This document shows positions 1,032-24,564 of a stretch of DNA of 64,000 nucleotides, in pieces. The notes under the pieces are model-generated. The model saw nothing but the letters and a program-made list of their open reading frames with translations. It was not told the DNA's origin and searched no databases. The translations under genes and the position numbers were made by a program. The DNA comes from Sarcomyxa edulis (taxonomy: Eukaryota > Basidiomycota > Agaricomycetes > Agaricales > Mycenaceae). The DNA is taken from NCBI GenBank assembly GCA_009761415.1, contig QUOL01000034.1, positions 23,659 through 87,658 of the forward strand. Direction: 5' to 3'. Position 1 is the stretch's first letter; every line of letters begins with the position of its first letter.

Positions 1032-1275
1032 GTGAGTTGCTTCATTGTTCTGCTTTTCTTTCGTGCTGTCCCCCTCCCCTTCTCTCTGGTCTATCCAAGC
1101 AAGGGAGAGTTGACTCTCCTGTCCACTCCCTTGCTGACTGCGGCGTTGACTCTCCTGTCCGCTGTGGTCCCCAAGACATTGACTCCTTTGTCTGTCTTGG
1201 TGTTGGATCACCAATTTTGTTTTCTTCTGCATGGTCTGTCTTCTTGTTTCCGGGTGCTAATGTGTATCTTTACAG
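1032..1275 (+). ncRNA. Leader intron 1 with hairpin triad A
   Basis: Predicted 244-nt intron with donor GTGAGT at 1032, branch-like GCTAAT near 1256 and acceptor TTTACAG ending at 1275. It contains three successive hairpins. A1 has arms 1099-1107 and 1126-1134 (9 perfect pairs). A2 has arms 1136-1144 and 1161-1169 (9 pairs, three of them G-U). A3 has arms 1171-1178 and 1193-1200 (8 perfect pairs). Each apex reads TTGACTC..YTGTC, so GAC and GTC can pair around a six-base loop. The G-U pairs suggest that structure is kept at RNA level. The ncRNA label is an inference; it could simply be a structured intron. Confidence 0.6.
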
Positions 1276-1580
1276 TCATTCCTTGCTGCATATCTATAAT
1301 CCTATATTGCCCCTGCTTCGCCGTTCCCTTCGACATGTACGTTGAATTTCTTACAATTTGCGACTCGGCCTACCCACTAACAAATTTCGATGCAGACCTA
1401 CATCTTATTCAGTCTCGCCTCTCTGGTTCTTCTTGCCTCAAGTTTGCCGCCGCTATCGCCCTCCCCTTAGCATTGTACGTTACATCTAGAAACTTCACAA
1501 AGTCAACATGCCCACTAATGTTGCTCGATGCAGCTCTACTTCCTGCTTACCGGCCTTAGTTCTGTATCGACGAGGACATT
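1276..1580 (+). other. Leader exons with two small introns
   Basis: Two GT-AG introns of 59 nt each fit well at 1337-1395 and 1475-1533. Both start GTACGTT and end CGATGCAG, and both have a CCACTAA-type branch region, so this exon-intron unit looks duplicated. The exons at 1276-1336, 1396-1474 and 1534-1580 would be untranslated leader of the gene starting at 1819. Confidence 0.45.
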
Positions 1581-1803
1581 GTAAGTCAATTTAGCCGTTT
1601 TATTGTCTCGTTCCATCTCTTCTGTAGTCTATCCAAGTGAGGGGGTGTTGACTCTCCTGTCCAACCCCTTGCTTTCCGCGACATTGACTCTCCTGTCCGT
1701 CGCGGCACTCAAGACATTGACTCTATTGTCTGTCTTGGAGTTGGGTCACTACTTCTATCTTGTTCCGGTGGTTTCAGATTTTTCTAACGGTTCATTTGTG
1801 TAG
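1581..1803 (+). ncRNA. Leader intron 2 with hairpin triad B
   Basis: Predicted 223-nt intron with donor GTAAGT at 1581, branch CTAAC at 1784 and acceptor GTGTAG ending at 1803, only 15 nt before the ATG. B1 has arms 1640-1646 and 1664-1670 (7 pairs, one G-U). B2 has arms 1676-1682 and 1699-1705 (CCGCGAC/GTCGCGG, perfect). B3 has arms 1710-1716 and 1731-1737. All three share the TTGACTC..TGTC apex of triad A, but the B2 stem differs from A2 at several positions while staying paired. Confidence 0.6.
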
Positions 1804-3304
1804 TCATCCTTTCGGTTTATGGCGCCTCCTGCACCGACACGCATCACGTGTTCCGTGACGTGCAATACCCCACAAACTCGAACATCGCAGGCTCGTAGAG
1901 GGCGTAAGAAAACCGGTGCCAGGAAGAAGGCATTCTTGCCATCGTCGTCAGATCATGACTCTCCGTCTTCGGAGGAAGAAGCTGGCTCTTCGGGCCATGA
2001 AACCATGCCGTCCGAAGATTCCAACCAGGTGGAACGCAAAGTTGGCCGTCCGCCACCAGGAGCAGTAAGGAGTGTAATCCTTTGACGTCTCAGCGCCAAT
2101 CTCCTCCAACTCCCTCCGTGCCTCAGCACCAACCTCCTCCAATTCCATCCGCGTCTCAGCACCAAGCCCCTCCGCCTTCTGCAATTACACAACTCGCCGT
2201 GTCGACACCTTCTCCTGCTACGCCATTGCGTACGCCGACATTGCCAGATCCACCTCCCACCCCATCTGTCCAACGTGTCCGGACAAAAAGGAGGAGGACA
2301 GATAAAGCTGCCTCTAGGGCAATGTACCCCGCTTCCGTAGACATGAGCACCGTCAAGTATCCGTCAGCCTCTTCTCTGCAGCCTTATGAGCGAAATAGTG
2401 GATGGTTTGCGTACCGGTACGCCTTTTGGCATGCAACAAGGAAGATAATATGTCACGTTCAATATATTGGTGACACGCCAATTCTCGGTATTCCCGAGAA
2501 TGAAGAAGAGGCTGAGAGACTTGTCAAGACCAACATCCAAGTCTTCGAGACTGGCGCGTTTCACCCACTTCCCAAGGGCTGGATTGTTCCTGCCCACCAT
2601 CTCACAACTTCTCAACAGTTTGCAGACGACTACGATGATTGGCTTGCATCCAAAGATTGGAGTCCTGAGGATCTGGAGACGGGACCTTGGCTGTCAGTGC
2701 CACTAGAGGAGCCCGAGACTCCGGAAGGGCCTGTTGGTGAGCAAGCGTTCTGTATAGACAGCTCGCCATCGGAAGTCATCGGTTGCAACATCGATGATGA
2801 CTTACTCCCACAAATCAACAGTGATTTTGTGTGTGACCAAAGACTGGCCGGGTTGTGGATGTCGCGGATTTGGATGATGATCAAGATGAAGATGGAAATG
2901 ATGATGCGCCAATCATCAAGTCTTCCCCTTCTGGAAGTGATTGGAGTAAAGATCGCAAGGAGAAGGAGGCAAAGTTGGAATTCCGACGGAAATTGGGCTA
3001 TGATGAGCCACACACTGAGGAAGAGGACAATGAGGAGGACTTGGAACTTGAGGGAGAAGTTGTGGAGAGTCCTGACAGAGTTAATCACAAGGGGAAAGGG
3101 AAAGCTAAGGAGGTACATGTCGGCTCGGAGGATGAGATTGATACAGTGGATTGTAAGAGAGGTTCTCTTTCAAAAGATAAACTTGCGCGGATCGATTCGC
3201 TGCGCCGTTTGATTGAGATGGCCATTGAAGACCTAGCGAAAACTCTCAACAGGTCGCACTCTCTGGTCAAGTTAAACATTGGCTTCTTGATCACGCCGTC
3301 CCGT

Positions 3305-5051
3305 TGTGATGAGGACTGTGGCGCTAGGAGTAGATGGGTTAGACTCCTAACTGTAGTTCGCCTCTAGGGGGTAAGGTGACGTTTTCTCGGAGGGGATTTT
3401 ACGTAGCGAGAAATCCTAATGCCCAGTGACTTGTATTTGGATAATGTGTTCGTAAAACGGTGGCGAGGTGGGTATGAGATGATGAGGTGTAAGGAAAGCT
3501 TCGGACTTGTAGGTTCGTTCTCGGTAAGCCGTTTAGAGGTTTCGGACAGCTATAAGTTTGTTCTCAAAAAACCTGCGAAGGCTTTGGACAGCTTTCGGAG
3601 AGCTGACCGATGCTTCGGACAGCTTATAAACGTCTTTGGAGAGCTATCGAGGGCTTCGGACAGTTATAAGTTCGTTCTTGGAGAACCTACGAAGGCCTCG
3701 GACAGCTCTCGGTGAGCTGACCGATGCTTTGTATAGCTATAAAACGTCCTCGGAGAATTATCGAAGGTTTCGGACAGTTCTGAATTGATTTCGGAGAGCT
3801 TCGAGGGTTTCGGACAGCTCTGAACTGATTTCGGAGAGCTTCCTTTGTTCCGAGAGTGATACTGCTGGCTGAATCAAGTCCTTTTCTCTTTGTTCGACCG
3901 ACTCCTGTAATCGTTTCCTTGTCTCGGTTTCAGAAGTATGAGAAAGAGATAGAATTCCTATAGAGAGTGACTGGGTAGTTGGTCGATTTGGGTATGTTCC
4001 TCTGGTTCTCGTCCACACTGGTTCTATCTACCGTTCTCCATGTCCTATCCTACTTTATATATGAATTCCTTCCCTGTCCTTGCCTAATTCTTCACCCCGA
4101 GTGCCGTCCCAAGGTCCCCGAGATCTCCAATGATGAAACAGATCCGGTATTGGTTTTGATGTGTCCGAACCTCGCTCAGTGTGAAAGGTTAGGGCCTGAG
4201 GTGTTCTCTGAAAGCGTTGCAAGGTGAATTTGTGAAGGGATGAAACATGTCCGAGTGAGCAGGATGATGGGGAGCTTCCGATAGATTTTTCCAAGATGCG
4301 ACGGCCAAAGTTGTCCGAGAAGAGTGAATTTGATGTGGGTTGCTAGGCGGAGACCTGTAGTGTCTTTGTTAGCGGGCGATACCTCGCTTACAAGTGCTGT
4401 GTCATGTGATAAACACAGAGGGAAGAATATTCCGTAGCACCACTTGGTCAGGGTGGACGGAGGTCTTAACGAGGCGTCCAGATGCATGGAAAGGTGTGAA
4501 TTGAGATCGCAATGTAAAGGGAATATGTCCGATTTGATAGGAAGAACAGCTCAGGGCAGCAAGCATCACGTTGGCGGTATGTCGACTGGTGGCGATGTTT
4601 TGTCGGTGAAGTATCTCTCGATGAGGTCTTCTAGAGGTGAAAGGGAGCCTGCTGAAACGATTTGGGATCTGTCCGAAGGATCTAGGGGGCCGCGGAGAGG
4701 TGATCGAGTATATTGGACTTTCGGTCAGGTGAAACGACGATAGGGAATTGGGTTCTGGCGGTAGATTTCCCTCGGAGAAGTTGTTCGTGTGTGATTTCAA
4801 GTATTCCAAAACGTTCTGAGACGTGACCGAAGGCGGGTTAGCGTTTCGTGAGTGGATGAAGAGGCCGCTTTCGGGGAGAAACCGTCAAGTAGCGGGTACT
4901 TGGTGTCTTTCAGTGTCCGGTCATTCGAAAAGTAAGTCGTTTGTGGTGATGCCACCAGTATCTCTGTAGTTAGCTATGTCTGGGGAGTCGCATAAGAGTA
5001 GGTTGTTGTATAGTTGTCGATTCCTTGGCTGGGGATGCTGGCATCCTCACA
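3305..5051 (+). mobile_element. Solo LTR, copy 1 (TG...CA, 4-bp TSD)
   Basis: A 1747-bp repeat beginning TGTGATGAGGAC and ending GGCATCCTCACA. These are TG/CA ends with short imperfect inverted termini, typical of LTRs. It is flanked by CCGT on both sides (3301-3304 and 5052-5055), a perfect 4-bp target duplication inside an exon. Near 3500-3850 it carries a tandem unit based on TTCGGACAGCT. No gag, pol or polypurine tract is present, so this is a solo LTR. Copy 3 has the same length with roughly ten substitutions by eye. Three other copies lie in this window, all in the same orientation. Confidence 0.8.
4054..4064 (+). promoter_or_regulatory. Probable TATA box of the LTR promoter
   Basis: The sequence TTTATATATGA is preceded and followed by pyrimidine-rich sequence. 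It is conserved in the other copies (about 22997, 32331 and 49832) and is placed where a U3 promoter would sit in an LTR of this size. Confidence 0.45.
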
Positions 5052-6978
5052 CCGTGCTGCCAACCTGTGGAATCTCTATCAGCGATTCTACTCTCTTGAT
5101 CACCCTCAGCCAAAGCCAAGTGAAGGTGGTGAGCTCCTGTTCCGTCTACATTTCACTCAAACAGATACTAATAAACATTTCACAGGGGAAGCTGTCAGAG
5201 CATGGAACCGGGCTGTTCAAGCAGCATACACAGAGTTCATGGAAGGTGTAGATAGTAAGGACAAGGAGGGCTGGGAAGCTAAAAAGGAAGAGCTCCTTGC
5301 GGAACTTGCAGTTGCAGATGCCACCATTGCGATGCAATCCCCTGCCAAGGCTGTGAACACATGCATTCACCAATTGACACGCCTTGTTAGTTGGGATTTT
5401 TTCTTCCTACGATTGTGTTCTTGCTGATGTGGTACCACATATAGGCACAAAACTGGAGTAATATTGGTGTTGAGATGTGGGGAGGTGTTGTACACCATAA
5501 ACCTGAAGGCAACATCGCCAGTGGTACCTTCGCTGGCGCGCCCGAAATCAAAGCCATCATTGAAAAGAACAAAGTTCCTATCCAGGAGCTGACACATCTT
5601 GTCGCTGCAGGAATGATGTTAGTTTGTGAGTTTGCCAGTCCTTGAGCATGTCTAACACATTCTCACCATGTAGGGTGGAAATTGCCAACAAATCGGGACC
5701 TCTCATACTGCCTGTGTTGGCAGAGACAAAGAAGAAGCCCAAACAAGATGAGGTGCGCACTCAGGTGTACCTCATGGGTTTCCTCTAAAGGCAAACCACA
5801 TTTTGCAATCAAGACTGCCATCACCCATCACATCAGAGCTATGAACTGGCCTGATGGTGTCAAGCCTCTGGGCCCTGGTTTTGAGGTCAAGAAGTTGGTC
5901 GGTGCTTCATTGGGGCAGCTCGCTGATGCACTGAATGGAGAGGAAGGGGATACAGGTCAGGTCCATCAGGTTCGGTTTGAGAAGTGGTCAGAAGGTTTGT
6001 TTCTCAATGTTTCTCTTTATTTCTACTTATCTAAGCCATTGTTCTTCACAGAGAAATGTCAACTGTCTCCAGATTCCAAGGAGTATGCAATGATTCCTTT
6101 GGTGATCTCTCAAAGTGGCCCTGTGTTGTTCCGCGTCTCAGATTCTATGAAAGCTCCAAAGGATAAGGCTCCTGATGATCAGGGATCTTCTGATGAGGAA
6201 GTGCCTGCTCCACCTTATGACCCGTGGCAGTCGCAATCCAATTCCGGGAACGCTGTTGCCTCCACATCTCATCTTGGTCCCCAACAGCCTCCTCCTGGTG
6301 CTCGTCCCAGACAGTCTTCCTCTCACTCTCGTAAACGCTCTGCCTCACAGCAAAGGGCCGCATCAGATTCTTATCCCTTGATGCAATCTCGCTTGCGGGC
6401 TGAGCAACAATTGGCCCAGGTGGATGAAGACTATGCAGCAGATCACTTGGAGCAGCATCCTTCAAAACGCTCCAGAACTCAAGAACAGGAACATGCTGCT
6501 TATCCTGTGCAGTCGGACTCTTCCCAGCAACCATATCATGATCCTCGCATGTCCAGTCACCCTCCGGAGCCACAACATGGTTATCGTCAACCTTATCGCA
6601 ACTTGGACTATGAACATGATGAGCGACACATGAGGCAGGGGGACTATAACATGGAGCCTCGTCGCTATCATGGTTATGATTATTGGAGGCAATCACCAGG
6701 TCCTCAGCCTTGGGATGAGCCTAGACGTCATTATGGTGGAGGATATTCTGAGCCTTGATATCCCAACTATCCACCTCCACCTCCACCACCTCCCTCTTCC
6801 TGGCACCCTGATCCTGGACCTTGGCAGTATGATAATTCCAGCCGGCAGCCCAACAACCAGTCTCGTCGTGCTTCTGTTCCTCCACCTGAAAGGACCTTGG
6901 GGGTCCTCCCTCCAATGAGTTGAATAGAGGTGCATATGATGCTCCTTCCAGGCCGCGGAATGTCTACCGGGATCAGTA

Positions 6979-7215
6979 TTGAGTTGTTTTATATATTTTG
7001 TACATTTACGTTTACTGGCAGATACCCATCATTGCCATGGACTTGCATATTCTTTACGTTTACAGGCTGATACCAATAATTGCCATGGACTTGCATATTC
7101 TCTATGTTTACAGGCTGATACCAATGATTGCCATGGACTTATACATATCTTTACATTTTACTTTTGGCTTATACCCGCATATCTGCTCTTGCCATGGACT
7201 TGTACATGATATAGA
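6979..7215 (+). repeat. Tandem repeat of about 54 bp
   Basis: About three tandem copies of a unit containing ATTGCCATGGACTTGCATAT and TTTACAGGCTGATACC, then a decayed fourth unit. It lies directly downstream of the end of the disrupted gene. No coding function is supported; the open frames through it only mirror the repeat. Confidence 0.7.
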
Positions 7216-7265
7216 ACTTTAGATCATTCTGCATGTCCTGATACAATATTTCTCACTGGTTGAGC

Positions 7266-7740
7266 ACTCTGGTTCAATCTAGCGTGACATAATAGTTCAT
7301 GTTCTTTGTGCACAATTGAGAAATGCCTGCCCAAGTATGTAGGATCTCACCATGACTGGGTGTCCCATGGTTTCGTTGTGGTTTTCCTAGGTTCAATGCG
7401 GGATTACCCCACATGACTTGGGGACTTCCCATGCACCACCTGGGAATATCCCATATCTGATGTAGGATTGTCCCATTATGACTGGGATGTCCCATTGCCT
7501 AATTAAGATTATCCCGCGTCCAATGTGGGATCATCACACATGACTCGGGACTTTCCATTGGCCACTTGAGAATATGTTACATCTGATGTAGGACTGTCCC
7601 AGCATGACTGGGATGTCCCATTGCTCATCTGGGAATATCTCATCGGGAATGGAGCTGTCCCATTTTAACCAAGGCATCCCATGTCTATGCTGTGTATTCC
7701 TTTGTGAATATGGTACTTTCCAATGTATGTAAGGCTGATT
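7266..7740. repeat. Diverged repeat of self-complementary TGTCCCA/TGGGACA blocks
   Basis: Blocks of the kind GACTGGGATGTCCCATTGC recur about every 150 bp (near 7350, 7480 and 7600), each next to a block containing GGGAATATCCCAT or TCTGATGTAGGA. The repeated words are partly palindromic. No gene is visible. Confidence 0.55.
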
Positions 7741-8600
7741 AGATCGTAAAGAGAAAATGGTCTGCCTTGGGAGCCAGACCACAATTTTTAGATGTATGGC
7801 AAGGCGAGTGGGAGTTTGATTGAAAGCAATGTGAGGCAGGTAAATAGTGAAACCAATGCAAGTGATGGTAATGACACATTAGACTAGAGCTGTCAAGACA
7901 GAAAATAAAATGAGAATAGCAAAGATCTAATAAATTTACAATGGTAAATTGAAAACCGTGCAAAAGCAAAAGGGCACACAAGTGAGCGTGAGGGTGTCCT
8001 AGGTAAATGAACAATGAATGGGGGTGGTGATGATGATGTTGATGCCAACAGCAAGAAGGAAAAGGAAAGCGAGAGGGAATAGAGAATTTATACCAATCTT
8101 TAGCCAGTGCACAAGTGCGGATCTATCTGTAGGTACTTATGATTTGATCCATGAGAAACTCACAGGTGTGAGTAGTGTTTATTGACTCGACCTGTGGGTT
8201 AACTACCTGCACAGATCTGGGTATCAAATTTGAAGATATTTCACAGGTACTTGCTCAAGTAGATCCGTGGGTATTACGATATACGGCACATTTGTCAGCT
8301 TTTTAGCTTCAAAGCTCAATACCCACAGGTAACAGGTACCTGTTGGCAAATACCTGGCAGCTCTGGGTATTGGTTTTGAAGATGCAACTACCCACAGGTC
8401 AAGTACCCAAACCTGTGGATCATGATCTGTGCCTAGCCTTAGACCAATCCCGGTCAAGTACCCAAACCTGCGGATCATGATTTGTGCCCAGCCTTAGACC
8501 AATCCCAATGCAATATGAGAAACAATTACTTGCAACCAAATAAAAAAAACCTCTGCCTCGTCCTCTGGAGGCTTCACACCATCAGGAAAAATTACTTTGG
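7741..8600. other. Non-coding region with a tandem duplication
   Basis: No gene seen. Around 8160-8400 the words ACCCACAGGT and TACCTG recur in both orientations. At about 8393-8508 a block of about 57 bp containing GTCAAGTACCCAAACCTG and CCTTAGACCAATCCC is present twice in tandem. Confidence 0.5.
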
Positions 8601-8609
8601 TCTTAGGAC

Positions 8610-8765
8610 ATCTCAAAGTGCTTTAAGTCATCTCAAGTCACCAAGTCACTCAGGTCACTCAGGTCATCCCAAGCAGCCCTTAAGTCAATTGAAATAATTC
8701 CTGAACCCTGTAATGACTTAGGGTGACCTAAGGTCACGTCCAAATCACCTCAGGATCACTTATAC
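8610..8765. repeat. AGTCA/AGGTCA simple array
   Basis: Short repeated words AAGTCA, AGGTCACTC and AAGGTCAC are clustered here. The array is the left part of a composite unit (about 8600-10200) whose organisation is repeated at about 15460-17035. Confidence 0.5.
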
Positions 8766-8989
8766 AGCTTTGAGAAGTGTGTAGGATTGGCTAAATTTGC
8801 ATATTTTGATCGTTCAATTTACTCAAGTCAAAAATGAAGTTCAAAAAACCAAATTTTATTCAAACTATTCTATATACATCAGAAATACATCTAAACTATC
8901 TGAAAGAGCAGTACAGAGCGGTAAAATAAAGTAAGACAGAATACATGGAGATAGGTGAAGGTGAAGATAGATACAACAAGCTAGAAACA

Positions 8990-9690
8990 CAAAAAGAATG
9001 AAAAAAGATGTCCAGGGAGCAAGGAGAAGGTAGGAGGAGGTGTAGGAAGGTCCAGGGAGGTAGGAGGAGCAAGGAGGAAGTAGAAGAAGGTGTAGAAAGG
9101 TCCAAGAAGGTAGGAGGAGGTAAGGGGAGCAGAAAGAAGGTAGAAAAGGTGTAAAAAGGTAGGGTGAGGTAGGGGAAGGCAAAATAGAGGTGTAGGAAGG
9201 TCCAGAGAGGTAAAAAGAGGTGTAGGAAGGTCCAGGGAGGTAAAGGGAGGTGTAAGAAGGTCTAGTGAGGTAAAGGGAGGTAGTGAGAGGTGTAGGAAGG
9301 TCCAGGGAGGTAGGGGGAGCAAGAAGGAGGTAGGGGGAGGTGTAGGAAGGTCCAGGGAGGTATAGAGAGTAAATGGGAGGTAGGGGGAGCAAGAGAAAGG
9401 TGCAGAAAGGTAGAGGGAGTAAGGGGGAGGTACAGAAAAGTGAAAAGACAAGGGGACGGTGCAGGAAAGTGCAGAAAGGTGGAGGAAGCAAGGGAAAGGT
9501 ACCAAGAGGTAGGAAAGCCAAAGGAGAGATACAGGAAGGTAGGAGAAGCAAGAGGAAGATGCATGGTGGTGCAGAGAGGTGAGAGAAGGAAAGAAAAGGT
9601 GCAGTAAAGCTGACCAACTAAAAAGAAGGTCTAAGGAGGTCTAGAGAGGTAGGGAAAGTCAAAGAGAGGTGTAGACAGATGGGAGGGGCA
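8990..9690. repeat. Purine-rich minisatellite 1
   Basis: About 700 bp of almost pure purine on the plus strand, built from variable units such as AGGTAGGGGGAGGTGTAGGA and AGGTCCAGGG. Long Leu/Pro/Ser/Thr-rich frames on the minus strand are by-products of the repeat and are not called as genes. The strand asymmetry makes triplex or slipped structures possible (inference). Confidence 0.8.
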
Positions 9691-10110
9691 AGGATCATCT
9701 ATAGACAAAGCATATCAGCAGTGAAAATGAACAGGAAAACATACCAAGTCCAACCAAGCTGCCACGTCACATCATCCATCATCCATCATTCTCTGTCTCC
9801 CTACCTATCAAAAAAGTATACTAGTTGGCCAGAATGTAGGAGAATACATCTATGATGATGCAGATGTTGAGGAAGAAGAGAAATGGAGGAAGCAGAAGGG
9901 AGGAGGAAGTAAGAGAAACGATGCGCTGGCAGCAAAGTTGAACAGTGACAGTGTGATGTCACGTCACAATGAGAGCGGATTTCTCTAAGTCCAAAAAGTT
10001 TGAACACGTCTTGTAGTTTGCTTTGTAATAACATGAAAGGTGCTTTCATGTTACTGCATTGGGAGCTTGAGTCTGCGCCTGGTACATAGTGCGTTGCAGC
10101 AAACAATACT

Positions 10111-10192
10111 GTAAGGTTCTTTAGTGTAGTGGTCAAGTGTCGTGATGTTTCGGGCATTTCGGCGAGGAATGCTGAGGTTCTGAGTTTAACTC
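10111..10192 (+). repeat. tRNA-like sequence (SINE head or tRNA relic)
   Basis: An A-box-like stretch TAGTGTAGTGGTCAAG is followed about 50 nt later by a degenerate B-box TGAGTTTAACTC. The acceptor stem and anticodon arm do not fold cleanly, so it is not called a functional tRNA. It sits at the right end of the minisatellite unit, as does the similar element at 16940. Confidence 0.4.
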
Positions 10193-10199
10193 TTGTTGC

Positions 10200-14330: not shown

Positions 14331-15460
14331 TCTTACATTGTGGTTTGACCAATAGTGTTGAAACTTAATTGGCCTTGTTGGACAAAAACAAAGACAAAAA
14401 CAAAAACGGCTATGCAATGACGTAGTTGCTGTCTTTGGATGGTGAGCGCCAGTTGTATCATAGTATTTTTCGGTCTGTATCTGTCCAGGTGCTTGAGCAT
14501 GTTAGTAGCAATAAACAAGTTTACTCAAGGGTACTCTGTGTTGGAAGTATAGTTGTATCTGTGCAAAATGAGGGTAGGTCCTCCATTTTGACAACATGCT
14601 AAATAATGGTATCTGAGTTCTAGCGCTTGGTGAACAATCTGAAATCGAAGCAAAAAGGTTTTGGGATTCTGAAGTTTTTGGCACTTTGCAGGTGATCAGG
14701 TCTGTAGGTTCATGCAAATTGTATTGGCATTCAGTTTGATCGTTGTTAAATCAACTCTTGGTGTTTGAATTGAGCATTCTGTTTGAATTGAGTGTTGTGT
14801 TCGAATCGAGCCTTGGTGTTCAAATCGAGCCTTGTTGTTCCGATGGTTCTACGTTCGAATCACGTTGTGAACTGTTTTTTTTTTGTTTTCCTTTTTGAAG
14901 TTCTTGTAGATTCTGAATTTCTTCTGTTCAGAAGGCAGCTCCATCTGAAATATAACCTTCATTTTATGAAAAAAAAATTGAATAAATTTCTTCTGTAAGA
15001 GCCGGTACCTTTTGCTCTGTATCTGTCCAGGTGATCAAGTGCATTTGTATTGCATGTGTAATGTTGGGTGCAAGTGAAGCTCTTGCACCTATCTTGCTTT
15101 TCTTTCGGTCAAGTTGAATTATGTATGTTTCTCAAAGTGGTTGACCGTTGCGCAAACCTTTTTGCCCTGCCCAAAGTCTGCCTCACCGGCCTTCTCGGCA
15201 TTCCTAAGGTCACATGACATATCTTTGTGCTCATTGTTGGACGTGACAAGAACTTGTTTTGACTTGATTCTCCGTATCTCTGGGTTCATGCAATGCTTAT
15301 ACATGCATGTTTCAACCCCTAACGGGCACAAGAATGTGTATACAGGCAGGAACAAGGATGTCTATAGAGTAAGGGGACTTGTAATGTGATGCAGGAGGTC
15401 AGGGGTTGGTGAAGGAATAGTATAGTATTCCAAACATCAGGAAAATGCACTTTTCCCTAG
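14331..15460. other. Non-coding region, no gene recognised
   Basis: A/T-rich sequence with a second isolated B-box-like piece (ACGTTCGAATCACG near 14850) followed by a T-rich stretch, as in tRNA-derived repeats. Short frames such as 15114-15389 have no support. Confidence 0.35.
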
Positions 15461-15469
15461 AGCACCCTG

Positions 15470-15720
15470 AGGGTAAGCCAGAGCTTCCCAGAGCTTCTCA
15501 GAGCTTCTCAGAGATTTCAGAGCTTCAGAGCACTCAGAGCGCTCTGGGAAGCTTTAGAGACAAGTTACCTTAGCCAGAGATCTTAAAGATGTCATGGGGT
15601 ATCCTAGGGCTAATTCAGAGCAATCCCAGATAATCTCAGTGCTACTCTGGATAATCTCAGTGCTACCTCAGATAACCTCAGTGCCTGTCAGATCTATTGA
15701 GTGTAGTTCAGAGCTTTTAG
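15470..15720. repeat. CAGAGCTTCT simple array
   Basis: Repeated CAGAGCTTCT, CCTCAGTGC and CAGATAA-type words. This is the left flank of the second purine minisatellite, in the same relative place as the AGTCA array at 8610-8765. A related CTCAGAG array recurs at 17110-17300. Confidence 0.55.
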
Positions 15721-15837
15721 AAATATCACATTTTCTTGCATACAAGTCAAGTTTTATTCAATTAAACACATATATTCATGGTCTTCTAATACATTATAAC
15801 TACAAGAGAGCTAGAAAAATAGAGGAAATAGTAGGGA

Positions 15838-16460
15838 AAAGGATGGAGATAGTATAGGGAGGTGACAAAAGGTTGGGAGGTGGTGAAAAGAAGTAGGAGG
15901 TGAAAAAGAGCTGGGGGAGGATGCAAAAGAGATGGGGGAGGGTGGAGAAAGGTAGAAAAAGGTACAAGGGGATGAATTTAAGGTAGGGGGAGGGACAAAG
16001 AGGTGGGAAAAGGTAAAAAGAGGTGGAGAAAGGTGGAGAAAGGTGAAGGGAAGGTGGGGGAACATACAAAGAGGTGGGGAGAGGTGGTAAGAGGTAAAAA
16101 GAGGTAGGGGAAGGTGGAGAAATGTAAAGGGGAGGTGGGGGGAGGTAGAGGAAGGGAAAAAGAGGCAGAAAAAGATGGTGAAAGGTGAAAGGGAGGTGAG
16201 AAAGGTCAAAAAAGGTGTGGGGAGGTAGGGGAAGGTGATAAGAAGTAGGGGAAGGTGATAAGAGGTAGGGGAAGGTGAAGAGGGAGGTATGAAGAGATCT
16301 AAACAGGTGGAAGCAGGTGGAAGATGGTACAAAGAGATGGAGAAGGTGAAAGAAGGTGAAGGCAATATAGGGGAAGGCCAAAAGAGGTGGAGAATGGTAG
16401 AAAGAGGTAGGGGGTGATGGAGGGTGGTAGGGGGTGGTAGAGGGTGGTGAAAAAAGTGGT
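15838..16460. repeat. Purine-rich minisatellite 2
   Basis: About 620 bp of plus-strand purines in units such as GGTGGGGGGAGGTAG and AAGGTGATAAGAGGTAG. The minus-strand frames are repeat artefacts. Together with 16780-17035 it matches the organisation of 8990-10200, including the shared segments CTGGCAGC.AAGTT, TGTCACGTCACA and ATTTCTCTAAGTCCAAAA, so the two are copies of one composite repeat. Confidence 0.75.
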
Positions 16461-16939
16461 GAAAAGATGGTGATACATATGCAAAAGATACAACATATCT
16501 TCTTTCCCTGTTCCTGGTTTCTTCCTTCCCATCTCTAAGCTCTCCATCCTCCAGAGTTATTGGTAGGATCTAGAAGCAGAATATATCAGCAGAAAGGACA
16601 CAAAAAGAAACATATCTACAGCAGCAAAAATGACAGCAAAATTGCCATGTCACCAATTGCTGTGCTCCAGCTTCTTCAAAGAGCAGATTAGTAAGCCAAG
16701 ATGACCAGGAACACTGGTATTGAGAATGTAGATGATAGAGCAATTAGTGGAAAGCAGAGGGAGGAAGGTGGAAAGAGGAAGAAGGATGATGAGCTGGCAG
16801 CCAAGTTCGCTTTCAGAGTGATGTGACACCATCACATGTGCAATGTCACGTCACACAACGAGCGAATTTCTCTAAGTCCAAAATGTGTTTGCATAAGAGG
16901 CTATACCTCAGGGTGATAGTACGAGGATAGTCATATAAT

Positions 16940-17032
16940 TACATGGTCTTGTAGACTATTGGTTAAGTTGTTAGTTTGTCGAAGTCATGTGCCTTTTAAG
17001 TGAAGTGCTCGAGTTCAAGCCTTGCTGGATGC
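16940..17032 (+). repeat. tRNA-like sequence at the end of repeat copy 2
   Basis: An A-box-like TAGACTATTGGTTAAG is followed about 60 nt later by a B-box-like CGAGTTCAAGCC. It holds the same relative position as the element at 10111, so a tRNA-derived module appears to belong to the composite repeat. No clean cloverleaf was found. Confidence 0.4.
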
Positions 17033-18059
17033 ATTTGTTTTCTTCGATGTTCTAGTCATCCGAAACCTGTTTTTTTACTCTATTTTACATCCTTTTTCAA
17101 TGGTATGCCAGAGCATCCCAGGGTGTCTGAGGTACCCTGGGAAACTACTTATTCCTAGGGCATCTCAGAAAGCTCTCAGACAACTCTCAGAGCTTCTCAG
17201 AGCTTCTCAGAGTCTCTCAGAGCATTCAGAGCTCTTAAAATACCCTGAGATGCTCTGAGATGCTTTGGGAAGCTTTTGGTTCTCTCAGAGCATGTGAGAG
17301 ACAAGTGACTTTTCCTGATGAAGTTGTGAAGGACAGACGTAAAAGATAAAGGAACAGGAGGAGTAGGTAACTCTGCATCTAAATGATCTGTCCCAGGACA
17401 AAGTTCTTGGCTATAAGCTCAGGAAAGTTTAGACTCTGGAATCCAGTAGAGATAAATGAAATAAATCCAGGAGTATTCCTGGATGCAGATAGACAAAATG
17501 AGATAACTCACAAGGACAGTCAGTCATTGCCTGACTTGGAGGCTCTATCAATTAACTCTGAAGCATCCAAAGAGATGAGGGCTAGTCCAGATTTGCTTGT
17601 AGAAGAACTAAGAGGGGTTGGGTGATGGTAGGTGCAGGGAAATGCTTACCTTACCTGATAAGGGAGCTCTGGAACTTTAGAACCATATGGACAGACAGTG
17701 AGTAATGATATATCCATCTTTTATTAGAATTTAAGTATCAGTGAGAGGCTCCTTGGAGGCTAAGAGCTTGAGAGAATCAAAAGGAAGATTGAGAACTGGA
17801 GATATAGCCTATAGACAAGGAAGATCTGCTGAGGGAAGAGAACTAATGAGCAGAGTTGAACAGAGGCCAGAGTTGAGCAGAGGCTAGCAGAGGACTCAAG
17901 GAATGGAGGTTGTTTGGCCTAATAGTCAACTTTGCACTCATTGTTTATTTTGTGCTTGTACAGGAAATTTGTGCAATAAACTAATGGGCAGTGAGTGCAT
18001 AGTCAATAGCCCAGAATTGATACTAATTGTGGGATTTCCATGTATTTCCAAATGTTGGT
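17033..18059. other. Non-coding region with a CTCAGAG array
   Basis: No gene recognised. 17110-17300 is dominated by CTCAGAGC and AGCATCTCAGA words. The remainder is A/G-rich unique sequence with short unsupported frames. Confidence 0.35.
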
Positions 18060-18498
18060 AAAAATACACTCTGTCTGATGGGTGGATAGCAAAACTGAGA
18101 AAACACTGAGAAAACACCAAGAAAATACTCAGGAAACAATGAGAAAATGCCGAGAAAACACTAAGAACACTGGATGTAGTGCATGCTCATTTATAGTGCT
18201 TAACCATTTCATATCCAAATTCCAAGGCATGAGCTCTGACACTATGATGCGCTGTAGAGGTACTTCATGTATTTTTGAAAAACCGTATTGCAGTTGTGCT
18301 CGAATCGAGAATTGAACTCGATTCGAGCGCAACCGCGATGCAAAAAAATGTCTGCAAAAATATCATAAAATTTATGCACTGGCTGGATTCGAACCTGTGT
18401 GAAGGCGTGAGCTTGAACCGATCACGTGATCGATGACGTGCGAACAAGTGTACTCTACAAAACATACACTCGTTCGCACGTCATCGAACCACGTGATC
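18060..18498. repeat. GAGAAAACACT repeat with long hairpin, copy 1
   Basis: It begins with an 11-bp array (GAGAAAACACT variants, 18095-18170), followed by a segment homologous to 27640-27820. It ends in a long inverted repeat: arms about 18420-18452 and 18465-18498, nearly complementary, around a 12-nt loop CTCTACAAAACA. The arms include CACGTG-type palindromes. A second copy of the whole unit lies at 27370-27902. Confidence 0.65.
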
Positions 18499-18524
18499 TA
18501 TTCGAGAAGAAAATAACTGCGGTC

Positions 18525-18597
18525 ATACAGGATCGAACTTGGACTCTTCGGTCTTATTACCGAGAAACTGACAAGTTGACCACTAGTCTACATAATC
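18525..18597 (-). repeat. tRNA-like sequence (minus strand)
   Basis: On the minus strand, GTAGACTAGTGGTCAAC resembles an A box and AAGTTCGATCC a good B box, with plausible spacing and a possible anticodon-arm hairpin (TCGGTAATAAGACCGA). The acceptor stem is weak. It could be a divergent or pseudo-tRNA or a SINE head; a covariance-model search would decide. Confidence 0.4.
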
Positions 18598-18869
18598 ACA
18601 TGACACTTTGAACATTTCGTAATCACATCCTGGGGGGTGTCTCCTATGCCAATATAAAAAAACATTGTTCTAACAGGCTCCAAGGAGGTCTACTTGTATG
18701 CAGGTAATGTGTATAGTCTAGATAGTGTAGCCAAATATACAAGGGTATGATTTCACTCGTACACTTGTTCACAGATCATAGGTTACATGACATATCACGT
18801 GATGTGTCATGTGTCGCATTGTTGAAAAGCTGTGGAGGTTCTTGTTTCATATTTCACTCCCCACTCGTC

Positions 18870-19515
18870 ATGTCCACCCCCGGTCATCTTCTTGACAAAT
18901 GGACTCACAGACATGATATTCAGTGTATCCAAAGAGACTACTTAGCCACGACTGACAAAACAACTCCCGAACAACTCCAACGCTTTATTGAAATTGATGA
19001 CGCAACTCGGAAACGTGGAGTTGGGGTAAGTTTTCCTCTGTCTTCGAGATATGAGCATGATTTGTGACGTATACTAGGATCCCCCTTGCCTACGCAGTTA
19101 TGCCGTTCTCCCTGCTGAATTCAATCTTTTTGGTCGGGAACCAGAATATGCGACCTATATACGTGCACGTTATTTTGGTGTAGGCGTGACTGCCGAAACC
19201 ATCATACGGACTGCTTCACGTATGAACGTCAGGATTCCCCGTATCGACTCCACCAGCACAGTCACTACCTGGCACATGGCCCTGTTGACAGGTCAAAACA
19301 TTGCCACTGTTTTATCGAAGATATGCCGGCACCCTATCAAGTGCCGGTGGGTTGCCAGTGGACACACGACCTACGCATTCACTATATTTAGCAACTACGA
19401 CCCAACTCCAACCGCTCCCCTCAACAACGACAAACAAATGCTCATTGCAATCATACAAACATTTCTGGGTGTCGAGAAGTCACCAGAGTGGTATTTCGAA
19501 GGGTATGCCTATTGA
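18870..19515 (+). CDS. Unknown protein, two exons
   Basis: The ATG at 18870 begins MSTPGHLLDKW. Exon 1 is 18870-19025, the intron is 19026-19077 (52 nt, GTAAGT...ACTAG, phase 0) and exon 2 is 19078-19515, giving 197 residues. The predicted protein has no signal peptide or membrane segment. A central RIDSTSTVTTWHMALLTGQ segment and the spacing of hydrophobic residues suggest a folded domain, but no family is recognised. Flanks on both sides are repeats, so it may belong to a mobile or multicopy family. The frame could extend past 19515 by a further exon. Confidence 0.5.
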
Positions 19516-19564
19516 TGTGGCGATTTTATCGTTGGTATTGGCTGATTGTGCAAAGGTAAGATAA

Positions 19565-21750
19565 TTTCTCAATGCTATATGTGTGTGTTCATAAATAACT
19601 AACACATTGTCCTAAAATTCAGTGGGAGATGATTTTTGTTTAGTATACATAATGACATTTGGTTTTGAGTGAAGGTGTTATTGTAAGGAAATTCATCAGA
19701 GATAATCTGATTATAACACGTACCATTTTTTTGGATTCTCTGTGAGCACAAATGCATTCAGATACAGCACCGGCCTCACATTGAACACGCATGCTGATCC
19801 AAAATGATGAATAAATTCAGAAATCATCCAATTTTAGAGCATGGTTTTTTAAGACTTGCAAATTCGAACAAGTCACACGTGGGAGCACTTCTATTTTTTT
19901 CCGCATTGCACACATATATCAAGAGCTTCTTCTATATTGTTGCAATTTGTGGTCTAGAATGTTTGATCGTGCTGTCCCTCATTGCGATGGAATGGCAGAA
20001 CTCCAATTGTTCTGCTGCATCACTCTTGAAGAACTGGTCCACATAGAACAACCCCAATGTTTGTGTCCATCTTCTCTTTTGGGGTTTGCACAAACAGAAG
20101 TGACAGTAATGAGACAATCAAAGGGGATAGGGTTCATTGTGGGTAACATTGAGCGTGGTTTAGCAACAGGACTGGATTTTACGGAATCTATCAGCGAGGA
20201 CTCTATGACTGTCAAGGTTGCCAATCACTGCGTTAAGACCCAGATTAGTTGCACTTTGGCTAGATACGGTTATGCAGGGGTAGGTGAAACTACTTAAATA
20301 CCTGAAGGTTGGGTAGGAGGTCTATTCGTGTAAATTTGTATGTCAAGTATCTGTGGCTTGGTACGACTACGTGAAAGTTTTTGAATACTTGGGATTTGGC
20401 TAGGTCTGACTATGGCTAACCAGGGGGTTACTCGAGGGTCAAATATACCTTCTACTCACAGATGTGTGTCTAGGTGCGTGCACTCAACATGCTCAGCCTG
20501 CAAGTAGATAGACTACTTGCAGACCGTGACTAGATGGTATATATTGGGTCCGACTAGCTCCGACCAAAAGAGGTCTTAACACAGTGAATACCATACTGGA
20601 ATCCATAAAATCTACTTATAAACACCACAAGGACATGTACCCTCTCTATACCTGAATTTGCTGGTAATCAGAATTGTTCAAATGGATTGAATACTTAAAG
20701 CCAAGGGGTGCTGGCTTCTGAGTTTTGCTTTCAGACCCACAGAGCGGACCTACCTACGTCATAAGCAGCACATGGTCTATAAATTGCCTTATTGGGAATT
20801 CCAATCACCCGGATCACCCCTCGACTATAACAATGACTCTACCGGGCAGGCCTGGACACTTCAGTATAACTGAGGAAAGGTTGTGTGCGCGGCAAAGCCC
20901 TGCACTCCCCCATGAATGCCTCACTTTGTCAAAATGCAACAAACTGAGTTTTGTAACACCCTCAAAGCTTTGGGAGCTTACCCATTTCAGTGCATCTATC
21001 TGCAAAGGGTAAGGTGGGGTATTGTACAATCTACATTGAGTACACTGCAGTATTGTAATAGGTGTTGGGATCCTATTAGCTTGACTCCGGAGAGATACCA
21101 GTACTTAGCATCTACAACAAGGGGACAAAGGATGGTTATAAACAGGTAGATTGCTAGGGGACAAACACATAAGGAACAGGTGTTCCAACTTGGAGTATGT
21201 GCAGCAATCTACAGAGTAGTACAAACACTATTAAATACTTGGGTGGCATGTAGCAGCACGCACACCAAGTGTTACTCCAATATGCAGGACATGACCCGCA
21301 CAGCTGATTTCAAGTTGCCTTGTAGTCACTCTACCTCCTGCCAAATGAGGGGTGGAGATTGCAATCTATATTTGCCACACAATCTGCCTCATTCTTCTTC
21401 AGACTATAGCTAATAGGAACATCTCTAGATTTCCTGGGAATACTTGTTTCTTGGACTACAAAGACACTAGATGTTAGATTCACTGGTGGTGGTCCCAATC
21501 CAGAGGCTCTCTGTTTTGTTCTGTTCTCGTCAAGTCAGATTGTTTTCTCTCACGCCTTGTCCAGGGACTATACACCAAAATCAACAATCTTCTCGTTATT
21601 CTCTCTTGTACTATGACAATGAATAGCGAACATCACCCCAAATTCAAGGTACATACATCACATGTGCACCTTTAGAACATCAATCTGACAAAATTCAAGA
21701 TTGGAGATTATGCATGGAGACGAGACGGAATTTCTCATATGTGGCATTGG
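19565..21750. other. Non-coding region, no gene recognised
   Basis: A/T-rich sequence with scattered frames of 70-116 codons and no supporting splice structure or motif. Short words such as GGTATATATTGGG and TCCGACTAG recur weakly near 20400-20600. Nothing further can be supported. Confidence 0.35.
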
Positions 21751-22442
21751 TCAAAGATTGCTGCAGTCCACAAAGATGAATTTATGGTATGTAAGATGTT
21801 GTTTACTGTGTTTGACAATTGATACGCAAACATGAGATAGGATATTCTCTCGTGGGCGTACACTGTGTACAATATCTCGGGCTTTACAAGCTGCTGTCTG
21901 GAATCGGAGCTTCAACACCCTACATCTTTTCCATTGCAGAAAAAGAAGGCTAAACGTAGAGTGTGGGACAAAAACACCGCTCAGTATGCACTTGACCATA
22001 TTGACGATTTAGCTGGGTTGTTACAGTAATTTGTGTTATTAGCAGCAATACATTATATTGGCTGCAGTAAATCTCATTCCTCAACTAGAAAAGGTCATCC
22101 CGACAAAGAGAATAGGATCAGGAGATCCTTGCTGCTGGCAGGCTTGACCACTTTGCTGGCGCATGACGCGTGATGTCACATCATGCAAAACGCACGAGAT
22201 AGAAATGAAGGGTGTAATGGTCAGACTAATGCCGGTCCATTACACCCAGTTTGTTACTCCAATAGTCACATCTGTCACACTCTGATCTGATTGCCAGCTG
22301 TACTTTCCTTTCTCTTTGTCGAATCAACACCAGTAATTGGCACTTCTCAGTATCGAGGACTCTAGCTAAGTTTCCCTTGACTTTTCGCTATTCTGTTATG
22401 CCAGACTCTCCCTCTATTTTCCATCCTCGGTGCCTTGCCCGT
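21751..22442 (-). repeat. Inverted repeat unit, copy 1 (cut by LTR copy 2)
   Basis: 21754-22442 matches the reverse complement of about 30306-30893 over nearly its full length. It includes CACATCTGTCACACTCT, GGTGTAATGG and a short conserved frame (MVKCILSGVFVPHS... on the minus strand here, plus strand in the other copy). At 22442 the match ends exactly where the LTR begins, so the LTR interrupts this copy. The flanking sequence of the other copy shows what lay beyond the insertion point. Confidence 0.7.
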
Positions 22443-23994
22443 TGTGATGAGGACTGCGGCGCTAGGAGTAGATGTGCTATACTCCTAACTGTAGTTCGCC
22501 TCTAGGGAGTAAGGTGACGTTTTCTCGGAGGGGATTTTACGTAGCGAGGAATCCTAATGCCCAGTGACTTGTAATTGAATAATATGTGTGTAAACCGGTG
22601 GTGAGGTGGGTATGAGATTTGATGAGGTGTGAAATGTAAAGAAAGCTTCGGACAGCTGTAAGTTCGTTCCCGGTGGGCCAATAGAGGCTTCGGACAGCTT
22701 TCGAAGAGCTGACAGATGCTTTGGACAGCTATAAAACGTCTTTGGAGAGCTATCAAGGGCTTCGGACAGCTCTGAACTGGTTTCGGAGAGCTTCCTTTGT
22801 CCGGGAGTGGTACTGCGGACTGAATCGAGTCCTATTCTCTTGTCTTCTGTAATCGTTCTTTTGTCTCGGTTTCAGAAGTATGAGAAAGAGATAGAATTCC
22901 AATAGAGAGTGACTGGGTAGTTGGTTGATTTGGATGTGTTTCTACGGTTCTGGTCCACACTGGTTCTATCTACCGTTCTCCATGTCCTATCCTACTTTAT
23001 ATATGAATTCCTTCCCTGTCCTTGCCTAATTCTTCACTCCGAGTGCCATCCCAAGGTCCCCGAGATCTCTAATGATGAAACAGATCCGGTATTGATTTTG
23101 ATGTGTCCGAACCTCGCTCAGTGTGAAAGGTTAGGGTCCGAGGTGTTTTCTGAGAGTGTTGCAAGATGAATTTGTGAAGGGATGAAACATATCCGAGTGA
23201 GCAGGACGATAGGGAGCTTCCGATAGATTTTTTCCAAGATGCGACGGCCAAAGTTGTCCGAGAAGAGTGAATTTGATGTGGGTTGCTAGGCGGAGACCTG
23301 TAGCGCCCCCGCCAGCGGGCGACACCCCGCTTACGAGTGCTGTGTCATGTGATAAACACAGAAGGAAGCACATTCTGTAGCACTACTTGGTCAGGGTGAA
23401 CGGAGGCCTTAACGAGGTGTCCAGATGCATGGAAAGGTGTGAATTGAGATCGCAATGTAAGGGGAATATTTCCAATTTGATAGGAAGAACAGCTCAGGGC
23501 AGCAAGCATCACGTTAGCGGTATGTCGACTGTTGGCAATGTTTTGTCGGTGAAGTATCTCTCGATGAGGTCTTCCAGAGATGAAAGGGAGCCTGCTGAAA
23601 CAATTTGGGATCTGTCCGAAGGATCTAGGGGGTTGCAGAGAGGTGATCGAGTACGTTGGGCTTTCGGTCAGGTGAAACGACGATAGGGAATTGGGTTCTG
23701 GCGGTACATTTCCTTCGGAGAAGTTGTTCGTGTGTGATTTCAGGTATTCCGAAACGTTCTGGGACGTGACCAAAGGCGGGTTAGCGTTTCGTGAGTGGAT
23801 GAAAAGGCCGCTTTCGGGGAGAAACCGTCAAGTCGCGGATACTTGGTGTCTTTCAGTGTCCGGGCATTCGAAAGGCAAGTTGTTTGTGGTAATGTCACCG
23901 ATATCTCTGTAGTTGGCTATGTCTGGGGAGTCGGACAAGAGTAGGTTGTTGTATAGTTGTCGATTCCTTGGCTGGGGATGCTGGCATCCTCACA
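22443..23994 (+). mobile_element. Solo LTR, copy 2 (unequal flanks)
   Basis: A 1552-bp copy of the same LTR (TGTGATGAGG...CATCCTCACA), shorter than copy 1 mainly through loss of tandem TTCGGACAGCT units. The left flank ends CCGT and the right flank begins CCGC. The left flank is the interrupted unit at 21751-22442, while the right flank is the middle of a leader intron of the AT-hook family. The two sides therefore come from different loci, as expected for recombination between two LTR insertions. Confidence 0.78.
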
Positions 23995-24126
23995 CCGCGA
24001 CGTTGACTCTGCTGTCCGTCGTGGTTCCCAAGACATTGACTCCATTGTCTGTCTTGGGATTGGATCACCACCCTTCGTTGCTTTGACTATCTTCTTGGTT
24101 CAACTTGCTGATGTGTATCAATTCAG
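23995..24126 (+). ncRNA. Leader intron remnant with hairpins C2 and C3
   Basis: C2 has arms 23995-24001 and 24018-24024 (CCGCGAC/GTCGTGG, one G-U). C3 has arms 24027-24035 and 24050-24058 (9 perfect pairs). Both share the TTGACTC..TGTC apex. A branch-like TGCTGAT and acceptor ATTCAG end at 24126, matching the 3' part of the intron at 1032-1275. The donor and first hairpin are missing because the LTR boundary lies at 23994. Confidence 0.58.
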
Positions 24127-24343
24127 GCTCCCCTCAATACATACTCGCTCCAAAATTTTCTCCCATTCCGATTACTTCCACACACACCCTTACCCACCCC
24201 CGCTCATTGTCAGGATTTGTTGTTGACGCCAACAGGTTAGTTCGATATTGTTCTTTTAGACCGTGGCATGACAACTAATATATTTCACGTAGCTTTTCTG
24301 CCTCCTCAGCTTTGCTGTACTGTTCACAGTATTCCAGTGCCTC

Positions 24344-24564
24344 GTAAGTCAATTTCCTCATGTCATGGTAGCATATTTTCTCGGCGGTATATCCAAGCAA
24401 GGGAGAGTTGACTCCTTTGTCCACTTCCTCCCTGACCACAATGTTGACTCTGCTGTCCATTGTGGTCCCCGATACATTGACTCCTTTGTCTGTTTCGGGG
24501 TTGGATCACCACCCATTCCTCATTCTGTCGTGTCTGAATTTTCTGACGGTTCGTTCTCACGCAG
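24344..24564 (+). ncRNA. Leader intron with hairpin triad D
   Basis: A 221-nt intron with donor GTAAGTCAATTT at 24344 (the same donor sequence as at 1581), branch CTGAC and acceptor CACGCAG ending at 24564, 15 nt before the ATG at 24580. D1 has arms 24400-24405 and 24424-24429, and is weaker. D2 has arms 24434-24442 and 24459-24467 (9 perfect pairs). D3 has arms 24468-24476 and 24491-24499 (8 of 9 pairs). The D2 and D3 stems differ from B2 and B3 by paired changes. The spacing from triad to ATG (81-82 nt) equals that of triad B. Confidence 0.6.

Follow-up and report, generated by a model that had tools for sequence, protein, structure and literature searches.

A four-helix intron unit with covarying stems in putative accessory genes of a KDZ transposon lineage in Sarcomyxa edulis

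Hairpin triads in the leaders of gene A

We analyzed a 64,000-nucleotide stretch (C28:23659-87658, hereafter the window) of the 35.6-Mb, 40-contig genome of Sarcomyxa edulis, in which leader introns of two gene copies carry consecutive hairpins with a constant apex in groups of three, here called triads. An initial annotation had placed 3, 3, 2, and 3 hairpins at four sites (11 in total), and every one of them was confirmed there with the apex TTGACTC..YTGTC. Each triad is a closed unit of four helices, ∼130 nt long, in which P1, an outer stem that contains an internal loop, encloses the three hairpins (H1 to H3); the annotation had described the hairpin array and overlooked this closing stem. 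It had also assigned the introns to two paralogous genes. Two copies are indeed present, and both are copies of one gene, here called A, a putative accessory gene of a KDZ transposon, a context that had been missed.

Donor, branch point, and acceptor consensus sequences were found at 1032-1275, 1581-1803, and 24344-24564 (Table 1). These three complete introns had folding z-scores of −4.75, −5.38, and −3.75, and none of 200 shuffles of each folded as well. R1, a covariance model built from 35 full triads, matched triad 2 at 1622-1755 (125.9 bits, E = 1.4e-34) and triad 4 at 24382-24515 (134.1 bits, E = 5.8e-37). The remnant, triad 3, was matched at 23954-24074 (87.9 bits); its intron ends at 24126, and repeat sequence stands in place of its 5' part. 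Gene A copy 1 has one more triad right before the window start, at L014:5185-5319.

A repeat of ∼1.7 kb lies at 3300-5040 and 22438-23998 of the window (93 to 94% identical). The first repeat breaks gene A copy 1, and the second abuts the remnant triad. Its 160-residue minus-strand open reading frame (ORF) is present four times (4402-4884, 23345-23827, 32679-33161, and 50180-50662).

Table 1. Gene A copies, leader introns, and triads in the window (MFE, minimum free energy fold; A1, sequence alignment of full triads)
Feature	Position	Strand	Remarks
Leader intron, gene A copy 1, with triad 1	1032..1275	+	244 nt; GTGAGT...CTAAT...CAG
Triad 1, P1 5' strand TGGTCTATCC	1087..1096	+	A1/R1 structure
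Triad 1, H1	1098..1135	+	A1/R1 structure
Triad 1, H2	1137..1168	+	A1/R1 structure
Triad 1, H3	1169..1202	+	A1/R1 structure
Triad 1, P1 3' strand GGATCACCA	1205..1213	+	A1/R1 structure; whole-intron MFE without P1
Ordinary leader intron without triad, 59 nt	1337..1395	+	Consensus sites, by eye
Ordinary leader intron without triad, 59 nt	1475..1533	+	Consensus sites, by eye
Leader intron, gene A copy 1, with triad 2	1581..1803	+	223 nt; splice consensus
Triad 2: P1 1625-1634/1743-1751, H1 1636-1673, H2 1675-1706, H3 1707-1740	1625..1751	+	
Gene A copy 1, first coding part, ATG 1819	1819..3300 (end approximate)	+	Then broken by repeat
Gene A copy 1, rest after inserted repeat	5041..6758 (limits approximate)	+	ORF similarity to other A copies
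Remnant triad 3: H2 23994-24025, H3 24026-24059, P1 3' strand 24062-24070	23994..24070	+	
Leader intron, gene A copy 2, with triad 4	24344..24564	+	221 nt; splice consensus
Triad 4: P1 24385-24394/24503-24511, H1 24396-24433, H2 24435-24466, H3 24467-24500	24385..24511	+	
Gene A copy 2, ATG 24580, 3'-truncated	24580..26040 (end approximate)	+	

A four-helix fold with covarying stems

Across the genome, the single apex motif occurred 130 times, versus 6 times for a reversed control, and two motifs in tandem were found at 107 places, versus none in the control. Among the tandem places listed (100 of 107), all 100 were at loci of gene A and/or of a second gene, B. A scan of the window and 36 fetched loci (L numbers) with R1 gave 56 matches at E < 1e-6 in 26 of the fetched loci, which were likewise A and/or B loci. 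Two alignments were analyzed. A1 holds 35 full triads of the 40 listed (five partial ones were left out), aligned by sequence, while A2 holds the 52 matches with E ≤ 1e-12 out of 65 with E ≤ 5 and leans toward the model, to which it was fitted. Because triads were collected through the apex motif, with two mismatches allowed anywhere, or through a model made from such triads, units without the apex could be overlooked; some degraded copies do deviate from the motif (L009:4847 and L013:2920). Scanning viral contigs for the triple motif gave no matches. The same scan of prokaryote genomes gave 10 stretches, which by eye were other tandem repeats and scored no more than 18.5 bits with R1 (E = 0.0028).

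These locations bear on the idea that the triads belong to an introner-like or miniature inverted-repeat transposable element (MITE)-type mobile sequence that spread into introns. Structured, repeated introns would suit such an origin, as would the units at 6038, 6340, and 6642 of L016, which follow one another at a constant 302-bp step, as in tandem duplication. However, introner-like elements occur as near-identical introns in unrelated genes, whereas the listed tandem places are all at A and/or B loci, and the conserved part is the triad and not the whole intron. We consider this origin very improbable.

The P1 strands are UGGUCUAUCC/GGAUCACCA, and the alignment shows both of them throughout (UGGU-CU-AUCC with GGAU-C-ACCA). 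When the second and fourth introns (1581-1803 and 24344-24564) were folded, the MFE structure had P1 around the three hairpins, and folding the 35 triads without flanks yielded 4 or more of the 8 P1 pairs in 32 of them. On these three grounds, the unit is best viewed as a four-helix junction. For members of A1, the single-sequence MFE fold contains on average 89% of the model pairs.

The stems covary. Among the 33 distinct sequences of A1, 94.0% of cells were paired, and two-sided changes occurred in 25 of 48 pairs (11.7 in shuffles; 0 of 500 shuffles reached the observed number), with a covariation score of 0.245 versus 0.127 in shuffles and at most 0.093 with slid partners. In the 45 distinct sequences of A2, 94.2% of cells were paired, and two-sided changes affected 30 of 48 pairs (shuffles, 15.7) and 193 cells (shuffles, 52.4), with a score of 0.280 (shuffles, 0.135). 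The covariation that had been read from the 11 hairpins of the window is thus present in a wider alignment, where kinship among the sequences inflates the shuffle test. A more independent comparison comes from the C16 copies, in which the B exon shares 50% identity with the query. MFE folding gave the same closed four helices for C16_B1 and C16_B2, with a wholly different P1 (UUUCCAC/GUGGAAA and GCUG..CCAG/CUGG..CAGC) and partly changed hairpin stems, and gave C16_A2 three hairpins whose stems are entirely different and which are enclosed by no more than a weak stem. Two three-motif groups upstream of the C16 A gene (L021:8194-8291 and 8537-8651) have the same apex, stems of 4 to 7 bp, and no closing stem in MFE folds; they are possibly a reduced form of the triad.

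Each hairpin is capped by a UU bulge, the GAC/GUC stem, and a six-base loop starting with UC. All 105 apices of the 35 full triads in A1 read UUGACUC[UC]N[CU][UC]GUC, and the apex middle reads TYAT in the C16 and C4 copies. This constancy is partly selected, since the units were gathered with the apex motif, yet full triads vary at four of 14 positions only. The apex start, UUGAC, resembles the branch points in these introns (CTGAC/CTAAC), and it is conceivable that it acts as a decoy branch point.

The initial annotation had named a repeated peptide of the LTLLS type as a possible cause of the pattern, and one frame is indeed open in 30 of the 35 triads. However, the apex spacing is not throughout a multiple of three in 15 of the 35 (36/34 in eleven, 35/33 in three, and 34/32 in one), so that the reading frame is lost between hairpins, and codons do not account for the paired two-sided changes. 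A coding origin therefore seems extremely unlikely.

Intron placement, conservation, and the KDZ element

A donor 30 to 75 nt upstream combined with CTRAY/TTRAY and a YAG ending 40 to 62 nt downstream was found for 46 of 53 triads, versus 2.1% of 10,600 random same-strand positions, with the distance windows fixed after the distances had been inspected. The 53 triads are the 56 matches with E < 1e-6 minus L023:7109, L024:8026 (the C4 coding-intron triad), and L021:8537 (a short-stem C16 group). The 46 introns are 193 to 245 nt long (median, 231 nt). P1 starts 36 to 76 nt from the donor and ends 31 to 48 nt before the branch A, so that minimum distances of 10 and 20 nt, respectively, are kept in all 46. 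For 49 of the 53 triads, gene A or B was detected farther downstream on the strand that carries the triad (compared by eye); no gene was detected downstream for four (three on C27 minus and L010:6562), and no triad was seen oriented against a detected gene. A1, A2, the C16 copies, and intron position thus support the proposal that the introns encode a structured RNA whose stems covary. Its assignment to leader introns holds in the window, but the C16 and C4 copies have one triad in a coding intron of A, by reading of the letters.

Orthologous triads of diverged copies were 70 to 87% identical in 19 pairs, versus 16 to 66% for their flanks (45 and 55 nt), a range that omits four L015 pairs (L015 with L014 and L017; 69% and 72%) and three young L016/L009 pairs (triads, 84 to 96%). 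Between the same diverged copies, the third codon positions of B were 48 to 64% identical. As judged from these identities, the triad unit appears to have been kept while its surroundings drifted toward saturation.

We interpret A and B as accessory genes that belong to a lineage of KDZ DNA transposons. The two are arranged divergently, with transcription of A leading away from B, and each leader holds one to five triads. A KDZ transposase domain (PF18758, E = 7.8e-65, L027:1450-2424) lies downstream of B on the same strand. Ten KDZ copies in the genome score above 210 bits, and eight of nine B genes have one 3.1 to 3.4 kb downstream on the same strand; one of these eight KDZ copies has an internal stop, and the B gene at C21:30k lacks one downstream. 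Near-identical copies occur elsewhere in the genome (C34 versus C40, 97 to 99% over ∼9.8 kb; C40 versus C21, 98 to 99%). R1 found no full triads in the fetched KDZ gene regions (L020, L021, L027, L028, and L032). Kyakuja elements are recognized by CA..TG ends, a 7-bp target duplication, and no terminal inverted repeat; in the fetched stretches, element ends and terminal repeats were not delimited.

The two genes were not always found together. B is present without a detected A on C27 and A without B on C4, where two inverted copies (L023 and L024-L025; C4:182.7-189.9k and 195.3-202.5k), 99.99% identical over 7.2 kb, each carry a distant A gene and triads. A protein search with a piece of A gave no matches, and named relatives of B came only from Melanogaster broomeanus and Paxillus ammoniavirescens, as partial hypothetical proteins. 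Work by Iyer et al. from 2014 reportedly deals with KDZ elements, and an earlier mention of A or B there is possible.

The window also contains a further KDZ transposase fragment, which belongs to a different lineage, at 33366-34156 on the minus strand (C28:57024-57814), with no triad beside it in the R1 scan of the window. A 689-residue ORF at 45310-47379 on the plus strand has a DDE_3 transposase domain (E = 4.3e-10).

Putative function and comparison with known systems

The best reading of the triad's putative function is a splicing-control or protein-binding element. More precisely, we propose, with a probability of roughly one-half, that the triad is a cis-acting structured pre-mRNA element of A and B in which P1 shortens the intron and the apices dock a trans-acting factor for splicing control. 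P1 would bring donor and branch point nearer, in the manner of yeast zipper stems, and introns of 193 to 245 nt would then behave as if they were short. Docking sites for a putative trans-acting RNA-binding factor, either transposon encoded or from the host, would be provided by the three similar apices, which recur in up to five introns of a leader; the docked factor would set splicing efficiency, by which expression of A and B would be coupled. The fold, its covariation, the constant apex, the position between splice consensus sequences, the conservation beyond the flanks, and the KDZ linkage come from computation, whereas splicing of these introns, binding of a factor, and the direction of its effect are inferred.

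By analogy, P1 probably acts as a zipper stem. A purely mechanical shortener of this type, in which the constant apices are structural and no trans-acting factor takes part, is nevertheless a doubtful explanation. In its favor, all 46 measured introns have P1 closing between the donor and the branch point, and zipper stems are described for yeast in the available parts of PMC12350175. However, the same leader has two ordinary 59-nt introns, so the length could just be lost; a near-invariant apex (105/105) despite changing stems is more than compaction requires; and nearly half of the measured introns exceed the 85-nt upper limit of the yeast linker. Because zipper action alone leaves the thrice-repeated constant apex unexplained, a trans-acting factor is favored.

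The compact fold, the many copies in both genes, and the conservation beyond the flanks would also suit an intron-derived small RNA, that is, a four-helix unit freed from the excised intron that has a trans-acting role in the life cycle of the transposon. No Rfam family was matched at gathering score, and several tandem copies per leader suggest a role in cis. We regard a small RNA of this kind as unlikely.

Several results weigh against the cis-acting splicing element that we prefer. P1 did not form in the whole-intron MFE fold of the first window intron (1032-1275), and fewer than 4 of its 8 pairs formed in 3 of the 35 triads. In MFE folds, C16_A1 has three hairpins without P1, C4_A1 has the middle hairpin only, and the two C16 groups with short stems have no P1. 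One or both splice consensus features were missing from 7 of the 53 triads, and 25 of the 46 triad introns fell within the yeast zipper linker range of 42 to 85 nt, with 21 above it. The copies are all drawn from a single genome, and gene conversion among them could add to triad similarity. For the host genes, a Pfam scan of five A/B pieces found no families, the predicted structure of a B exon was poor (predicted local distance difference test score [pLDDT], 57.6), and a Foldseek search with this model gave no match at E ≤ 0.001. Lastly, sense and antisense MFE values were alike (sense below antisense in 15 of 33 and 22 of 45 sequences; Wilcoxon P = 0.45 and 0.92).

Since sense and antisense fold equally well, covariation alone is no proof of RNA over DNA. 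The initial annotation had held that G-U pairs imply selection on RNA. G-U cells do outnumber A-C cells (46 to 31 in A1 and 72 to 40 in A2), but the excess is modest and, with both strands folding alike, makes a weak argument. Equal stability of the strands, the modest G-U excess, and hosts that are DNA transposons would all agree with a DNA-level element, in which palindromic binding sites or extruded DNA hairpins are read by a transposon protein. On the other side, the apex is asymmetric and follows the direction of the gene in 49 of 53 triads, with none seen running against a detected gene; the units are placed between the donor and the branch point; and enclosure of three hairpins by one stem is sensible in a single strand only. 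All of these speak for RNA, and no full triad was found in the fetched KDZ gene regions. We judge a DNA-level element to be improbable.

A more specific form of the splicing-control proposal, which we advance tentatively, is that an element-encoded protein reads the UUGACUCYN..GUC apices in introns of A and B and that splicing thereby ties expression to copy number. Such a circuit might then be, again as a speculative suggestion, an array of hairpins within introns akin to the trans-activation response (TAR) and iron-responsive element (IRE) hairpins, giving a DNA transposon an RNA-protein control of its own, for which no relative was found. In TAR and IRE hairpins, a bulge, a short upper stem, and a hexaloop form a protein-recognition apex. 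The triad apex is built alike, which is an analogy only, and the triad differs in its sequences, in having three apices per unit, and in being intronic.

If the proposal is true, folded intron RNA gives a DNA transposon posttranscriptional control over its accessory genes, which could explain the balance among several genes of large multigene KDZ elements. It would also mean that a strongly covarying intron RNA exists where surveys may not have looked: as far as the available parts of PMC5640933 and PMC8216456 go, one used Ascomycota genomes only and the other lacks the word Basidiomycota. With R1, the idea can be tested directly on basidiomycete genomes and RNA-seq data.

No Rfam family matched the whole window at gathering score, and the best subthreshold match at 1000-1830 was MIR8139 (24.1 versus 90 bits). 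A tRNA-like RNA was rejected, as ARAGORN found no genes at 900-1900 of the window. The triad is not mentioned in the available parts of PMC5640933 and PMC8216456, on fungal structured RNAs, or of PMC12730594 and PMC12810828, on KDZ elements. The earlier statement that no such family is described thus stands as far as Rfam gathering scores in the window and this partial literature are concerned.

The KDZ transposase domain is shared with Kyakuja/KDZ elements of Agaricomycetes (PMC12730594) and with KDZ1 of Cryptococcus (PMC12810828), which, in the portions of the source covered, is also a large element (∼11 kb); the difference is that the word hairpin is absent from the main texts of both. Fungal introner-like elements and repeated stwintrons (PMC9024468) are likewise repeated introns with predicted secondary structure. 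According to the parts of that source at hand, whole introns are alike there, whereas here the triad alone is conserved and the listed places are all at A/B loci.

Known intron structures include those in ribosomal-protein introns and the thiamine pyrophosphate (TPP) riboswitch in fungal introns, described as autoregulatory or ligand responsive in the available parts of PMC5640933 and PMC8216456. The likeness is that of conserved fungal folds in introns or untranslated regions that are thought to control splicing or expression via a protein or ligand; the triad differs in having no Rfam match at gathering score, in its place in transposon genes, and in its single apex repeated three times. The Drosophila P element is a DNA transposon in which regulated splicing, mediated by RNA-binding proteins, determines the gene products, as splicing control is proposed here. 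For its third intron, the regulation runs through pseudo-5' splice sites in an exon and the host proteins PSI and hrp48, and the parts of PMC7776569 considered describe no structured intron array.

A mechanical parallel is the zipper stem of Saccharomyces cerevisiae introns, which, in the available parts of PMC12350175, forms between the 5' splice site and the branch point and leaves a linker of 42 to 85 nt. Its minimum spacings are satisfied by all 46 triad introns, although 21 of them pass the upper linker limit. What sets the triad apart is that the stem closes three constant-apex hairpins and that this arrangement is repeated across several introns of two genes.

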